Below are positions 1 through 6,610 of a stretch of 6,610 bases of DNA, in pieces. The notes under the pieces were generated by a model. That model did not search any database, was not told the DNA's origin, and saw only the letters and a program-made list of their open reading frames with translations. Source of the DNA: Desulfobacteraceae bacterium (GTDB taxonomy: Bacteria; Desulfobacterota; Desulfobacteria; Desulfobacterales; Desulfosalsimonadaceae). How positions within the stretch are numbered: the first letter of the stretch is position 1; the number at the start of each line of letters is the position of its first letter. The stretch covers positions 1-6,610 of the forward strand of contig SLGU01000368.1 in the NCBI GenBank assembly GCA_007136525.1, given 5' to 3'. The position numbers were made by a program, and so were the translations under genes.

Positions 1-162
1 ACCGGATCGGGCGTCAGCATGGCCACCTACGTGGAAACGGCCCGCCAATTGATGGGCAAAGCGGGTCAGCGTCAAGTGCCGGGCGCCAATTACGTCTTTC
101 AGGATACCTCCGGCGGATCCGGAATGAATTTCATCGCAACGGTATGGGGGAGGAACAACTGA
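1..162 (+). CDS. Thiolase / SCP2-type lipid-transfer protein, C-terminal fragment
   Basis: Frame 1 is open from the window edge to TGA at 160-162, giving the last 53 residues of a protein whose start lies upstream. The fragment begins with TGSG, which fits the end of the thiolase HPxGATG loop. It continues with a helix ending in QLMGKAGQRQVPGA, a pattern typical of the SCP2/lipid-transfer branch of the thiolase superfamily, and closes with GGSGMNFIATV, the usual glycine-rich last strand. Family members perform thiolytic or retro-aldol cleavage of acyl-CoAs. This branch commonly works with a DUF35 zinc-ribbon partner, and the next gene starts with such a module, overlapping by one base, which supports the assignment. 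The catalytic Cys/His residues lie upstream of the window, so active thiolase, aldolase and non-catalytic homologue cannot be told apart here. Confidence 0.8.
   Translation, partial: TGSGVSMATYVETARQLMGKAGQRQVPGANYVFQDTSGGSGMNFIATVWGRNN
146..154 (+). promoter_or_regulatory. Ribosome binding site deciding the start at 162
   Basis: A strong GGGGGAGGA lies inside the 3' end of the thiolase gene, with its GGAGG core at 149-153 and 8 bases to the ATG at 162. The longer in-frame start at 144 overlaps this site and has no purine-rich sequence at the proper distance upstream. The ATG at 162 also shares its A with the thiolase stop (TGATG), a classic arrangement for translational coupling of two subunits made in fixed ratio. 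Confidence 0.8.
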
Positions 163-1481
163 TGGAAATGCAAAAACCCGCACCCGTAATCCAACCCTGG
201 ACAAAGGAATTCTGGAAAGCCACCAAACAGGGAAAACTACTGATCCAGCATTGCGACGACTGCCAGGCCAATATTTTCTTTCCGAAAAAAGTATGTCCGG
301 AATGCTGGTCAAGCCATTTAAGCTGGATCGAATCTTCCGGCAAGGGGGTTGTCTATACCTTTACCACCATGATCGACATGGTTGAGCCCAAGTTCATGGG
401 CGATCTCCCCTACGTCATTGCCATGGTGGACCTGGCGGAAGGCGTTCGCATGACCACCCGGATCGTGAACTGCAGCCCGGATGACGTCGCCATCGACATG
501 AAGGTGACGGTGGCGTTTGAAGACGTCTCTCCCGATTGCGCCCTGCCCATGTTCCAGCCGGCAGACCCCTCCCTACGGCTGGTTTCTGAAGATGATCACG
601 ATGAGACGTCCGCAGCGCCCATTGCGGAGCCCGCCATGGGCCCGGACAACTATCAGACGATTTTATACGAAATCGGCAAAACATGTGACGGGGAATGCAC
701 CATTACCCTGAACCGGCCGGAAAAATACAACGCCATCAACCGGCAGATGGCCGCCGAACTCATCGACGCATTCCGCCGGGTCAGAAACGAGGCCGCCATC
801 GGGGTGGTGGTGCTGGCCGGTGCCGGGGAAAAAGCCTTCTGCACCGGCGGCGATCTTGAAATCTTTCCGTCGCTGGCCGAGCACCAGAACAGCCTTAACT
901 GGCTTTCCCATGAAGGACTGGATGTGCAGCGGGCCATTACGAGCTGCGAAAAAGTGGTGATCTGCAAAATCGACGGCCACTGCCTGGCCGGGGGCCTTGA
1001 ACTCGCCCTGGCCTGCGATCTCCTCTATGCAAAAGAATCGGCAAAAATGGGGACCACGGAGATCAACATGGGGATTCTCCCCGGATGGGGCGGAACCGCC
1101 CGGCTGCCGCGCAGCATGCCGGTATTCCGGGCAAGGGAAATCATCTTCTCCGGTCGCAAGGATTATTCAGCCAAAGAAATGTACGACATGGGTCTGCTGA
1201 CCCGGGTGTTCAAGGACGACCAGTTCGAATCCGAGTTTGAAAAAGTCGTCAAAAACATTGCCGCCAAAAAACCGACGGCACTTCGCATGGGCAAGGAAGT
1301 CATGGCCCGCTCGGTTGACGGCTGCGACATGGAAACCGCCCTGGCCGTGGAGCGCAACGGCATTCAGTGGCTGACCTATTCGCCCGATATCCAGTCGATA
1401 ATGGACCAGTTCAGGGCCAGCCCCGATCGGCTGACCCAGCAGCAAAAACAGCAGAACATCCAATCCGACACGAAGAAATGA
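162..1481 (+). CDS. DUF35 zinc-ribbon/OB-fold - enoyl-CoA hydratase fusion protein
   Basis: This 439-residue protein has two domains. Residues 1-140 form a DUF35-type module: an N-terminal helix (PWTKEFWKATKQGKL), a zinc ribbon with C31-x2-C34 and C45-x2-C48, then an OB-fold strand region (GKGVVYTFTTM to VTVAFEDV). A linker rich in Asp, Glu, Ala and Pro (about 142-162) leads to a complete crotonase domain (about 164-420). That domain has the NRPEKYNAIN start, oxyanion-hole motifs FCTGGDL (226-232) and AGGLELAL (276-283), and both glutamates expected of a hydratase: E280 and E300 (GTTEINMGILPGWGG). The tail is Gln-rich. DUF35 proteins normally dock onto SCP2-type thiolases, and the gene overlaps one, so the protein probably hydrates an enoyl-CoA and passes the product to that partner. 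The two modules are usually separate proteins, so the fusion is notable. Hydratase activity is inferred; hydratase-lyase or isomerase is possible. Confidence 0.93.
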   Translation: MEMQKPAPVIQPWTKEFWKATKQGKLLIQHCDDCQANIFFPKKVCPECWSSHLSWIESSGKGVVYTFTTMIDMVEPKFMGDLPYVIAMVDLAEGVRMTTRIVNCSPDDVAIDMKVTVAFEDVSPDCALPMFQPADPSLRLVSEDDHDETSAAPIAEPAMGPDNYQTILYEIGKTCDGECTITLNRPEKYNAINRQMAAELIDAFRRVRNEAAIGVVVLAGAGEKAFCTGGDLEIFPSLAEHQNSLNWLSHEGLDVQRAITSCEKVVICKIDGHCLAGGLELALACDLLYAKESAKMGTTEINMGILPGWGGTARLPRSMPVFRAREIIFSGRKDYSAKEMYDMGLLTRVFKDDQFESEFEKVVKNIAAKKPTALRMGKEVMARSVDGCDMETALAVERNGIQWLTYSPDIQSIMDQFRASPDRLTQQQKQQNIQSDTKK

Positions 1482-2826: not shown

Positions 2827-4380
2827 ATGTACACATTGGGCGACATACCACGGAAAGGCGCGCTGCATTTTCCGGACAAAGAAGCCGTTGTCTTTGAGGA
2901 AACCCGGCTGACCTACGCGCAACTGAACCGCCGCGTCAACCGGCTGGCAAACGGCCTCATCAAAATGGGGTTTAAAACCGGAAACCGTCTTACAGTGCTG
3001 GCGGAAAACACCCACAAATACCTTGAAGTATATTTTGCCGCCGCCAAGCTGGGGATAAGCACGACCCCGCTGAATTACCGGCTATCGGACGATGAAATCA
3101 TCCACATTGTAAATAACAGTGAAGCAAACGGCTTTTTTGCCGGAGACGGCTATGAGACCCGGACTTTGAACATGCGTGATCGTCTTTCCACCATTGACGC
3201 ATGGATTGCCTTTGACGGAAACGTTCCGGAATTTATTGCCTACGAGGAGATGTTAACCGATTCGCCCGAAACCGAACCGGAGGTGAACGTCGATGAATCC
3301 GACCTGGCGGTGCTCATGTATACCGGCGGGACCACCGGGCTTCCCAAAGGCGTGATGCTGTCCCACCGCAACATCATGACGGGCGTGCTCACCGCCAACC
3401 TGGTTTCCGGCATCAACAGCAGCGATTCAACCTGCTTCGTGCTGCCGCTTTTCCATGTGTCTTTCTGGCCGACCTTTTGCCTGCTGCTGGTCGGCGGCAA
3501 AGTGGCCATCAACCGGAAACCCGATCTTAACGAAATCCTGCGAATCATCCAGGATGAACGCTGCACCCACATGAACGCCGTGCCTACGGTTTACGGCTGG
3601 CTGCTGCAGTTCGGCAACGTGGCGGCCTATGATCTTTCCAGCCTGAAAATGCTCTCCTATGCCGGCAGTCCGTTTCCACCGGAAATCCTGAAACAGTGCA
3701 TGGAAAAATTCGGGCCGATTTTCGCCCAGGGCTATGGGGCCACGGAAACCGCCGGCGGCGCCATCAGCCTCCTGCGTGAGGAAGATCATGCCCTGTCGGG
3801 TCCGAAAACGGGTTTGCTGGTCAGCGCCGGCAAGGCAGCCCTCTGCTCGGAAGTCTGCATTGTGGACCAGGATGGGCACCCGGTGCCTGAAAATGAAATC
3901 GGCGAGATCGCCGTCAGGGGAAAACACGTCATGATGGGATACTGGAAGAATCCGGCACAGACCGAAAGCGCCATTCGCGGCGGGTGGTACCACACCGGCG
4001 ACATGGGCTTCATGGACGCAGACGGTTACCTGTTCATGTTGGACCGCAAGGCGGACATGATCGTCACCGGCGGAGAAAACGTCTATCCCAAGGAAGTCGA
4101 GGACGTGCTCTATGAGCATCCGGCGGTTTCCATGGCGGCAGTGGTCTCAGCCCCGGATTCAAAGTGGGGGGAGCGGGTCCAGGCCGTGGTGGTTCTCAAA
4201 CCGGACCAGACCGCGACCGAATCCGAGCTGATCGGGTTTTGCAAGACCAGGCTGGGGGGCTTTAAATGCCCAAAATCTATTGAATTCTGGGAGTCAATTC
4301 CCACCACCCCCGTTGGCAAGATCCTTCGCAAGGATGTGAAAAAGAAGTTCTGGGAGGGGCATAATCGTTCAATTGGTTGA
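2827..4380 (+). CDS. AMP-forming acyl-CoA ligase (ANL superfamily)
   Basis: This 517-residue protein is a full-length adenylating CoA ligase. It activates a carboxylic acid with ATP to an acyl-adenylate and then forms the acyl-CoA thioester. Visible signatures in order are the phosphate-binding loop YTGGTTGLPKG (165-175), the motif YGATET (303-308), the HTGD motif with the ribose-binding Asp (389-392), the hinge region DRKADMIVTGGENVYPKEVE, and the C-terminal PVGKILRK with catalytic Lys at 498. The N-terminus (ALHFPDKEAVVFEETRLTYAQL) is typical, and AGGAG ends 8 bases before the ATG, so the start is secure. No transmembrane segment is evident. It follows the 166-base repeat-rich gap and precedes the amidohydrolase by 45 bases. 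It is the likely entry step for the pathway encoded here. Acid specificity (fatty, aromatic, alicyclic or phenylpropanoid) cannot be read from the motifs. Confidence 0.95.
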   Translation: MYTLGDIPRKGALHFPDKEAVVFEETRLTYAQLNRRVNRLANGLIKMGFKTGNRLTVLAENTHKYLEVYFAAAKLGISTTPLNYRLSDDEIIHIVNNSEANGFFAGDGYETRTLNMRDRLSTIDAWIAFDGNVPEFIAYEEMLTDSPETEPEVNVDESDLAVLMYTGGTTGLPKGVMLSHRNIMTGVLTANLVSGINSSDSTCFVLPLFHVSFWPTFCLLLVGGKVAINRKPDLNEILRIIQDERCTHMNAVPTVYGWLLQFGNVAAYDLSSLKMLSYAGSPFPPEILKQCMEKFGPIFAQGYGATETAGGAISLLREEDHALSGPKTGLLVSAGKAALCSEVCIVDQDGHPVPENEIGEIAVRGKHVMMGYWKNPAQTESAIRGGWYHTGDMGFMDADGYLFMLDRKADMIVTGGENVYPKEVEDVLYEHPAVSMAAVVSAPDSKWGERVQAVVVLKPDQTATESELIGFCKTRLGGFKCPKSIEFWESIPTTPVGKILRKDVKKKFWEGHNRSIG

Positions 4381-4425: not shown

Positions 4426-5430
4426 ATGAGCGAATTCATAAAAGACGACTATTTTAAAATCGACCCTGAACCGCATATCATCGGCAACATGGAGTTGGTA
4501 AACCACTTTCCGGGGGTCCAGATGTGGTGGCGGGCCATTGAAAACATTCATCGCCCCATGATCACCGGCATGCCTTTATCCGTCTATGAAGGGATGGAAG
4601 AGTGGGAAATGACGAAAAACACAGACCCTTCCTTCCTGCTCAGAGCCATGGACAAATACGGGGTCGACATCGCCTGCCTTCTTCCTGAATCGATGATGGA
4701 CACCACCGGGTACTCCAGCCGCTGGTGCACCAATGGCGAGATGGCCAAAATCGTGGAATCCAACCCGGACCGGTTCATGTATCAACCCAACATATCGCCC
4801 ATCAAACACAAGGGGGTGAAGAACACCATCTGGGAGTTGGAATACTGGGTGAAGGAGAAGGGGGCTAAAATCTTTAAATTCTACCCGCCCGAAGACACCT
4901 ATATCAACGACCCGGACATCTGGCCGTTTTATGAAAAGGCCGAGGAACTCGGGATCGTTTTAGACATCCATACCGGGTTTTCCTGGGTGCCGCCGGGAAA
5001 GAGCAAATATGCCCTGCCGATTTATCTGGATGACGTGGCCAGGGATTTCCCGGGCCTGAAGATCAACGCCTTTCACATGGGATACCCCTACTGCGCGGAC
5101 CTGAACATGATCGCCATGCAGCACCCCAACGTCTACGTCTGTCTGAGCCTGCTCGTCCCCTGGGCGCTCTGCTCGCCGCGCAACTTTGCCCGGATCATCG
5201 GCGAGGCCCTGCGCTGGGTGGGGCCGGACAAGATCATCTGGGGAACTGATTACGCAGGATACGGCGCACAGGTCCGGTCTGCGGTCATGGGAATGCGGGA
5301 TTTCCAGATCCCTGAAGAGATGCAGCAGGGATACGGATACCCGGCCATTACCGATGAAGACCGGAAGAAAATATTCGGCGGCAACCTGGCCCGGCTGCTG
5401 GGCGTCGACGCCTCCAAGCGACGCATTTAA
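4426..5430 (+). CDS. Amidohydrolase-2 family (TIM-barrel) protein, decarboxylase-like
   Basis: This 334-residue protein looks like the amidohydrolase-related family (PF04909/COG2159), which contains metal-dependent decarboxylases and hydrolases. The first-strand metal motif, usually DxHxH, reads D13-P-E15-P-H17. Glu-x-His is the form used by gamma-resorcylate and 5-carboxyvanillate decarboxylases. Other expected ligands are in place: H182 (LDIHTG), H217 (NAFHMGYP) and D275 (IIWGTDYAG). The C-terminal KKIFGGNLARLLG helix is typical of the family. AAGGAGG at 4415-4421 lies 4 bases before ATG, and the next gene follows after 17 bases. Decarboxylation of an aromatic acid is the best guess from the metal site, but hydrolysis of a lactone or ring-opening of a cyclic ketone intermediate is also possible. 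Many family members sit in anaerobic CoA-degradation clusters without known function. The family call is firm; the reaction is open. Confidence 0.88.
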   Translation: MSEFIKDDYFKIDPEPHIIGNMELVNHFPGVQMWWRAIENIHRPMITGMPLSVYEGMEEWEMTKNTDPSFLLRAMDKYGVDIACLLPESMMDTTGYSSRWCTNGEMAKIVESNPDRFMYQPNISPIKHKGVKNTIWELEYWVKEKGAKIFKFYPPEDTYINDPDIWPFYEKAEELGIVLDIHTGFSWVPPGKSKYALPIYLDDVARDFPGLKINAFHMGYPYCADLNMIAMQHPNVYVCLSLLVPWALCSPRNFARIIGEALRWVGPDKIIWGTDYAGYGAQVRSAVMGMRDFQIPEEMQQGYGYPAITDEDRKKIFGGNLARLLGVDASKRRI

Positions 5431-5447
5431 TCATTAAGGAGATACCC

Positions 5448-6610
5448 ATGCCCTACGATGCATTATTTGAACCCATTACCATCGGCGATATGGAAATCAA
5501 AAACAGGATTGCGGTCGCGCCCATGAATGCCGGTTACGCCGCTCCGGACGGATATCCCAATGATCAGTATCTGGCCCATTACGCCACCCGGGCCCGGGGC
5601 GGCTTCGGCCTGATCATTACCACCGCGGCCATGGTCAATCCCTATGACTGGGCCGGCTGCGAAAAGATGAACCCGCTGAAATTCACGGATCATCGCTATT
5701 ACCGCTTCTGGAACGAGATTGTTAAAGCGATTCACTACTATGACTGCAAAATGGCCATCCAGTTGAGTCCTGGTTGGGGCCGCCAGGGGCATCCCAATGC
5801 GGGCCGGCCGGATGTCCCGGCCGGGGCGCCGTCCTGCGTTCCTCTGTGCATGGACCTCAGGGATTATTTTAAAAAATGCAAAGGCAACATTGCACAGATG
5901 AAAAAGAAAATCCCGCCGGAGGCATTTAACAGCATAGACATCGAAGGTCTGATCAACATGCCGGACGAGGAATACTTTTCACCGGATTTCCAGATGTTCA
6001 TGCAGGATACCCTCTCCCAACTGCAGCCGGAAATCTATCATTTTATCTGGGGGGACGTGCCCCGGGAGCTGACCATTTCCGAAATAAAGGATCTGGAAGA
6101 CCGGATGGCCGCCCAGGCCATGGCAGCCTTTGACCTGGAGTTTGACGCGGTGGAAATCCACAGCCCCCATGGATACCTGATTCATCAGTTTCTTTCCCCC
6201 AAGATGAACAAGCGGAAGGATGAATACGGCGGCAGCCTGGAGAACCGTTCTCGTTTTCTGATCAATATCATCAAAAAAATCCGGAAAAAGGTCGGGCCGG
6301 ACAAGCCGGTCTGGTGCAGGCTGAGCGGCGATGAACTGCAGCCCGGAGGGATCCACCATGAGGAACAGTGCCAGGTGGCGGCCATGGCAAAAAAAGCCGG
6401 CGTGAATGCCATCAATGTGTCCCAGGGAAGCTACGAGGCCATGGGCAGCGCATTCGCCCCGGACGGTGAAGGGGATTTCACTCGTTGGGCGGCCGGCTTC
6501 AAGAAGGCTACCGGCGGGCTTCCCATTCTGGTGCCCAATTTTTTAACCCCGGCAACCGCGGAAAAAGCCATTAAGGAAGAATCCGTGGACATCGTCCAGC
6601 TGGGCCGGCA
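5448..6610 (+). CDS. Old yellow enzyme / 2,4-dienoyl-CoA reductase type flavoprotein, 5' part
   Basis: The first 387 codons are present; the frame is open to the window edge. The N-terminus (LFEPITIGDMEIKNRI, APMNAGY, ARGGFGLIIT) and the later EIHSPHGYLIHQFLSP with KRKDEYGGSLENR are hallmark FMN-barrel motifs of this family. H238 and H241 form the substrate-anchoring His pair. The barrel is nearly complete at the cut (IVQLGR). Relatives reduce or isomerise C=C bonds conjugated to a carbonyl or CoA thioester, including dienoyl-CoA reductases, bile-acid BaiCD/BaiH and naphthoyl-CoA reductases. An unusual stretch of about 60 extra residues (roughly 135-203) lies between the APSCVP and PRELTISEI motifs, which are usually close together. 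AAGGAG (5436-5441) lies 6 bases before ATG. Whether the C-terminal 4Fe-4S and FAD/NAD(P)H domains of the long form follow cannot be seen. Confidence 0.93.
   Translation, partial: MPYDALFEPITIGDMEIKNRIAVAPMNAGYAAPDGYPNDQYLAHYATRARGGFGLIITTAAMVNPYDWAGCEKMNPLKFTDHRYYRFWNEIVKAIHYYDCKMAIQLSPGWGRQGHPNAGRPDVPAGAPSCVPLCMDLRDYFKKCKGNIAQMKKKIPPEAFNSIDIEGLINMPDEEYFSPDFQMFMQDTLSQLQPEIYHFIWGDVPRELTISEIKDLEDRMAAQAMAAFDLEFDAVEIHSPHGYLIHQFLSPKMNKRKDEYGGSLENRSRFLINIIKKIRKKVGPDKPVWCRLSGDELQPGGIHHEEQCQVAAMAKKAGVNAINVSQGSYEAMGSAFAPDGEGDFTRWAAGFKKATGGLPILVPNFLTPATAEKAIKEESVDIVQLGR

Follow-up and report, generated by a model that had tools for sequence, protein, structure and literature searches.

A DUF35-crotonase fusion beside a thiolase-fold protein that lacks the nucleophile cysteine: a probable hydratase-aldolase pair found mainly in Desulfobacterota

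The closest described system is the Shy-Sal pair of the bile acid pathway of Comamonas testosteroni. The gene of CtShy, a DUF35-hydratase protein, is located downstream of sal, and the DUF35 domain by itself is described as binding the aldolase Sal (PMC11321319). In this complex a linker of 26 residues was modelled as disordered and a competing dehydrogenase captured 93% of the hydratase product (PMC12329534). The placement of DUF35 in Shy is given as N-terminal in PMC11321319 and as C-terminal in the abstract of PMC12329534; the residues Cys31, Cys44 and Cys47 fit the N-terminal placement. In the actinobacterial steroid system ChsH1-ChsH2-Ltp2, the DUF35 that docks the aldolase is also carried by the hydratase, where it is C-terminal of the MaoC domain, and the stated benefit of the complex is the pulling of the hydration equilibrium (PMC11321319). 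The active site of CtSal is described with a Gly, the base Tyr302 and the essential acid Cys304, and that of TcLtp2 with a Gly, the base Tyr294 and the acid or proton donor Tyr344 (PMC12329534). In the benzoylsuccinyl-CoA thiolase BbsAB (7pxp), too, DUF35 is the partner of an SCP2-type thiolase fold. BbsB retains the motifs HDAF and GHP. To our knowledge, no hydratase is fused to BbsA.

The stretch of DNA analysed here (the window; 6,610 nucleotides of a Desulfobacteraceae bacterium, contig SLGU01000368.1) begins on its forward strand with the last 53 residues and the stop codon of an SCP2-type thiolase-fold protein (positions 1 to 162, +), for which we propose the function of a CoA-dependent retro-aldolase. 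Read in frame 1 from the first base, 47 of these 53 residues are identical to the C-terminus of the orthologue of Desulfosarcina widdelii. The window begins one residue past the active-site His, and the catalytic residues of this protein were read from its orthologues. The following gene (positions 162 to 1481, +), delimited by its open reading frame, Pfam domains and alignment, encodes a DUF35-crotonase fusion, a putative hydratase that would dock to the aldolase through DUF35. Its likely start is ATG162 (439 residues), ATG144 being possible (445 residues), and the stretch GGGGGAGGA is located upstream of ATG162. The thiolase-like stop (160-162) and this start overlap as TGATG, in agreement with the overlap noted in the first-pass annotation.

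The fusion protein comprises a zinc ribbon zf-ChsH2 (PF12172, positions 213 to 314, +; residues 24-57, E 2e-10), the OB fold OB_ChsH2_C that forms the DUF35 docking domain (PF01796, positions 324 to 521, +; residues 61-126, E 4e-20) and a crotonase, or enoyl-CoA hydratase, domain (PF00378, ECH_1, positions 696 to 1403, +; residues 185-420, E 1.3e-53), these residues being numbered from ATG144. The four zinc-ribbon Cys (C31, C34, C45 and C48 counted from ATG162; C37, C40, C51 and C54 from ATG144) and the two catalytic Glu (E280 and E300 from ATG162; E286 and E306 from ATG144) are invariant across 38 aligned fusion proteins, of which the other 37 are 63-92% identical to that of the window, so that the domains and residues initially annotated are confirmed. 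The conserved Cys suggest a putative zinc site of Cys4 type. DUF35 and crotonase are separated by a variable linker of about 29 residues (positions 564 to 650, +), whose length is 26-31 residues in the 38 rows and whose mean column identity is 0.40, versus 0.76 and 0.83 for the domains; residues 149-171 are below pLDDT 50 in a single-chain model that is weak overall (pLDDT 58). Both Pfam domains are present in 119 of the 120 best among 2889 protein matches (E <= 1e-20), at identities of at least 64%, and the fusion architecture is therefore not due to chance. None of the 25 NCBIfam models listed, of 73, reaches its cut-off on the crotonase, so these families do not decide its function. The two hydratase Glu are found in 36 of 36 crotonases (35 related loci and the window), as in crotonase-type hydratases.

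As in Shy, DUF35 and a hydratase domain are contained in one protein, encoded downstream of an aldolase-like gene, with a linker of comparable length. The differences are that the hydratase is of MaoC type in Shy and a crotonase here, that the four invariant zinc Cys here suggest a Cys4 site in place of the Cys3His site of Shy, that an amidohydrolase and a flavoenzyme belong to the cluster here, and that DUF35 and the hydratase are often encoded here by separate genes.

The bacterial and archaeal genome collection was scanned once with the fusion alignment, yielding 48 loci; L047 and L048, unrelated crotonases with the crotonase only (27% and 23% identity), were set aside before counting. A DUF35 segment was detected in 43 of the 46 loci examined (L024, L026 and L032 show none), and in all 43 a thiolase-like gene is directly upstream, its match ending 3-42 bases ahead of DUF35 (ends of tblastn matches, that of L037 being fragmentary). 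The crotonase is directly downstream of DUF35 in 36 of the 43 loci and shares one open frame with it in 12; it is upstream of the thiolase-like gene in four (L038, L039, L040 and L046), and no crotonase of the present kind was seen nearby in L037, L042 and L045. The neighbourhood is thus conserved, the fusion being one of its forms and separate genes the commoner one. The first-pass annotation had inferred a crotonase in the role of MaoC, and had suggested a search for the DUF35-crotonase domain order in which a lack of neighbouring thiolases among most homologues would refute it: the crotonase in this role is supported, none of the 43 DUF35 loci lacks the thiolase-fold neighbour, and the fusion, present in 12 loci, is not the rule.

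A second sample was obtained with the same alignment from 291 genomes of the class, 21 of which match (E <= 1e-60). DUF35 is present in 28 of 30 stretches and the thiolase-like gene adjoins it in 28 of 28, several of these stretches repeating the first loci; the two without DUF35 (L063 and L069) stop no more than 300 bases from where the crotonase starts. The first loci having been chosen by DUF35 and crotonase patterns, a search with the thiolase-like profile constitutes a less circular test. In 395 genomes of the phylum this profile has recovered 22 matches in 19 genomes (E <= 1e-110), and DUF35 adjoins all 22, of which 13 are at places outside the first 48 loci. The family proper accounts for 11 of these matches, in 10 genomes (E below 1e-218), and the 11 others are relatives with 40-43% identity. 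Concerning the taxonomic distribution, the loci belong mainly to Desulfobacterota, with scattered records labelled SAR324, Dehalococcoidia, Chloroflexi, Gammaproteobacteria, Nitrospirae and Nocardia; among 394 genomes of the class to which the Nocardia locus belongs, only the Nocardia itself matched. As a control, DUF35 was searched near the thiolase paralogues of three genomes and was found within about 0.6 kb at 6 of 20 places; at four of these six (L079, L080, L081 and L098) the thiolase retains its Cys. A DUF35 next to a thiolase fold is thus common and alone is no sign of an aldolase.

The residues of the active site were counted in 39 full-length orthologues (41 thiolase-like proteins less the partial L036 and L037; numbering of L001, D. 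widdelii). The protein has the thiolase fold, and the position of the nucleophile Cys of SCP2-type thiolases is occupied by Gly100 in 39/39 sequences, in alignment with the Gly of CtSal and TcLtp2. The His of the HDxF motif is replaced by Tyr302, also in 39/39, which aligns with the tested bases of the known aldolases, Tyr302 of CtSal and Tyr294 of TcLtp2. In the family, Tyr302 is followed by Ala304 and Tyr305 in the motif Y-x-A-Y-P (39/39), and the His of the GHP motif is retained as His352 in the motif RGHTGSG (39/39). We take this His to be the only one of the usual thiolase residues that remains in the family. It aligns with the proton donor Tyr344 of TcLtp2 and with Gln352 of CtSal. The acids of the two known aldolases are therefore not conserved: the sequence YDCY of Sal and YDHF of Ltp2 correspond to Y-x-A-Y here (YLAY, with Ala at the Cys304 site and the D replaced), a His stands at the Tyr344 site, and the active site is unlike that of any tested aldolase. 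Of the Ltp2-like residues that the first annotation suggested looking for, the Gly and the base Tyr were found but the acid of Sal or Ltp2 was not.

As read from the alignment, the Gly/Tyr pattern excludes ordinary thiolysis. An ordinary beta-oxidation set, in which an SDR or a distant dehydrogenase would supply a 3-ketoacyl-CoA for thiolysis and DUF35 would be a structural subunit as in BbsAB, is unlikely, the nucleophile Cys and the HDxF His being replaced in all 39 full-length orthologues. It would accommodate the SDR found in 12 of the 43 loci, the pairing of DUF35 with thiolases that bear the Cys, and the fold comparison, which does not separate aldolases from thiolases, the aldolase scores falling inside the span covered by archaeal thiolases and BbsB. 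The NCBIfam equivalog cut-offs for BbsA (47 versus 250 bits with the split DUF35 of L013) and BbsB (103 versus 750 bits with the thiolase-like protein of L001) are not reached. The association between the two lost residues also argues against such a set: among 23 thiolase paralogues from three genomes (L001, L018 and L029; L092_1 dropped), the HDxF His is present in the 14 that have the Cys and in none of the nine that lack it (Tyr in seven, Ser in two).

One of these Cys-less paralogues, from Nocardia, displays the complete set of Ltp2 residues and clusters with TcLtp2, which serves as a positive control. The eight others form a separate clade (L083, L086, L088, L089, L092 and L093), some of them in tandem, and L083 and L089 also hold DUF35. 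Six of the eight have the Tyr, two of these six having also the His at 352. Gly and Tyr are thus found in Cys-less paralogues outside the aldolase group; these residues alone do not prove aldolase chemistry, which tempers our confidence in the hydratase-aldolase reading. In the phylogenetic trees the family clusters with CtSal, TcLtp2 and 4u4e and is separated from the thiolases as well as from the eight Cys-less paralogues (100/99 and 100/100). The family forms its own clade (100/100), inside neither the Sal nor the Ltp2 clade. These trees were rooted at midpoint and CtSal has a long branch; the branching order within the aldolase group lacks support. Left out were 20 (first tree) and 31 (second tree) of the 39 family rows and a partial BbsB, and also L121 in the second tree. 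In this second tree the relatives of the family likewise fall in the group of CtSal, TcLtp2 and 4u4e, where they form two groups. All 11 relatives (L110-L118, L120 and L121) are Cys-less, have Gly, Tyr and His at the three sites and adjoin a DUF35; a crotonase like the one studied here was matched in only 2 of their 11 stretches.

The cluster common to the related loci contains the thiolase-like gene and DUF35, which may or may not be fused to the crotonase, together with genes for an acyl-CoA dehydrogenase, a ligase, an amidohydrolase and a flavoenzyme. In the window, the fusion gene is followed by the acyl-CoA dehydrogenase gene (positions 1497 to 2660, +; Pfam). Pro366 and a conserved Glu245 are present in 35/35 rows of this enzyme, window included; we take Pro366 to be at the position of the usual base Glu, and the placement of Glu245 to be that of the isovaleryl- and long-chain types. 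The AMP-forming acyl-CoA ligase (positions 2827 to 4380, +) matches PF00501 and PF13193 and also NF004837 (514 bits, cut-off 476). In the gap ahead of its gene, we observe four tandem TTAATGG units (positions 2709-2736). The Amidohydro_2 enzyme (PF04909, positions 4426 to 5430, +) has the conserved pattern ExH...H...H...D, presumably a metal site, with E15, H17, H182, H217 and D275 in 30/30 rows, window included. Finally, a flavoenzyme of old-yellow-enzyme type (PF00724, positions 5448 to 6608, +) is cut by the end of the window. Three Cys are conserved in 29/30 rows, the window copy stopping before them; the D. widdelii protein (L001:15283-16674, 463 residues) ends shortly past this Cys-rich, cluster-like motif, which leaves no room for an NAD(P)H domain.

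Anywhere in the stretches examined, some of which lie on short contigs, the acyl-CoA dehydrogenase is found in 37 of the 43 loci (on the other strand in L042), the ligase in 29, the amidohydrolase in 30 and the flavoenzyme in 29. A 3-hydroxyacyl-CoA dehydrogenase of HAD type was detected in two loci (a single query, HAD protein by Pfam, at 80 bits, in flanks of at most 10 kb that contig ends often truncate) and a classical thiolase in one. L001 has the gene order of the window, with a full thiolase-like gene and a divergent regulator (L001:7720-8571, -) that combines MerR-type and TetR-type DNA-binding domains in one protein; the regulator has matches of at least 60 bits in 28 of the 43 loci, its orientation not always being divergent. 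All classical thiolase residues beside a 3-hydroxyacyl-CoA dehydrogenase, which would have spoken against the aldolase part, did not appear, although in D. widdelii the opposite strand carries a HAD dehydrogenase and a classical thiolase at a distance of 3.5-4.6 kb, the dehydrogenase at 4.6 kb. Genes of FadL-type transporters were seen in four rows, two of which are the same gene, hence at three distinct places. CoA-transferase-like alpha/beta pairs are near the cluster in L008, L013, L028 and L040, and a butyryl-CoA:acetate CoA-transferase-like gene in L008, L021 and L028.

The ligase, the acyl-CoA dehydrogenase, the FadL-type genes at their three places and the CoA-transferase-like genes look catabolic. 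Together with the loss of the Cys needed for an acyl-enzyme, they leave a low probability to a biosynthetic cluster in which the thiolase-fold protein would form C-C bonds or transfer acyl groups (by aldol condensation or in the Friedel-Crafts manner of PhlABC), even if an aldolase is reversible in principle and the fold also fits PhlC, which is described with a DUF35 partner (PMC12329534). We attach an equally low probability to a crotonase that would be a hydrolase or ring-opening enzyme of BadI/ThnL type, with the thiolase-fold partner acting on its product; in the naphthalene pathway, ThnL and ThnU are given as bifunctional hydratase/hydrolases (PMC12016498), but the two hydratase Glu are conserved throughout the crotonases compared here. 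A non-catalytic scaffold that holds the hydratase in place would agree with the existence of other Cys-less paralogues and with the loss of the usual thiolase residues except the GHP His, and is very improbable, since the invariance of Tyr302, Tyr305 and His352 in 39/39 and the persistence of Gly, Tyr and His in the 11 diverged relatives are not expected of a dead enzyme.

We conclude that the first two genes of the window probably encode a hydratase-aldolase complex working like Shy-Sal and ChsH1-ChsH2-Ltp2; the best reading, by analogy, would be a counterpart of Sal-Shy in which a crotonase replaces MaoC. The observed basis of the hydratase-aldolase reading is the gene order, the domains, the conserved residues and the trees. 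The docking and the chemistry, which are taken from Shy-Sal, the acid residue and the class of substrate are inferred. Against this reading stand the Ala at the site of the Sal acid and the replaced D, the Gly and Tyr found outside the aldolase group, the SDR that could oxidise a secondary alcohol, the seven of 43 loci with no crotonase directly downstream of DUF35, the DUF35 adjoining thiolases that keep the Cys, the fold comparison, and the HAD dehydrogenase and classical thiolase near the D. widdelii cluster. In the proposed route, the ligase would make the acyl-CoA, the acyl-CoA dehydrogenase would desaturate it and the crotonase domain would hydrate the enoyl-CoA to a 3-hydroxyacyl-CoA. 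The thiolase-fold partner, docked on DUF35, would then cut this compound by a retro-aldol reaction without prior oxidation, the products being acetyl-CoA (or a homologue) and either an aldehyde or a ketone. As the base, Tyr302 would accept the 3-hydroxyl proton; the likely acid for the enolate would be His352. By removing the product, the cleavage would pull the unfavourable hydration.

The first-pass annotation had proposed such a cleavage without oxidation, which is probably right in view of the replaced Cys and His, the trees and the rarity of HAD dehydrogenases. It had also proposed that the intermediate is channelled straight to cleavage. The capture of 93% of the product by a competitor in Shy-Sal, the nearest characterised complex, as described in PMC12329534, speaks against this, the linker here being of similar length. 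The earlier interpretation is therefore partly supported: largely right on the partners, probably so on the aldolase, and too strong on channelling.

Concerning the substrates, acids that carry a branch or ring at the beta carbon fit best, on evidence that, including the Glu placement of the acyl-CoA dehydrogenase and the FadL-type genes, is suggestive only: hydration of such acids would give a tertiary alcohol, which cannot be oxidised, and this would explain the missing oxidation step. Other anaerobes presumably face the same problem of a tertiary 3-hydroxyacyl-CoA. The naphthalene pathway meets a tertiary alcohol, for which AtuA-like lyases (ThnQS) are reported from unpublished work (PMC12016498), and LrcC is proposed for the tertiary-alcohol cleavage step of the limonene pathway (PMC12583861). 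Both belong to other protein families than the present one, ThnQS to the AtuA-like lyases and LrcC to the HMG-CoA synthase superfamily.

It is possible, and we advance this only tentatively, that the family belongs to a non-steroid, oxidation-free route that breaks beta-branched or alicyclic acids, mainly in Desulfobacterota, and that relies on a thiolase-fold aldolase of a third kind, with Tyr as base, His as acid and the motifs Y-x-A-Y-P and RGHTG, its hydratase partner, the crotonase, being tethered by DUF35 in one lineage. In the open-licence literature we have found no prior description of such a crotonase-type DUF35 hydratase-aldolase. The family proper occurs in 10 of the 395 sampled genomes of the phylum, and the family or its nearest relatives in 19, and the thiolase or acetyltransferase labels that its members carry may be wrong. 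If our reading is true, the design of the DUF35 hydratase-aldolases, which has been characterised with steroid side chains, would extend to other, probably anaerobic, catabolism, and its hydratase module would be swappable, crotonase for MaoC. For the hosts, a tertiary 3-hydroxyacyl-CoA would no longer be a dead end, and the family offers an enzyme that can be tested for cleavage at the carbons that halt beta-oxidation.
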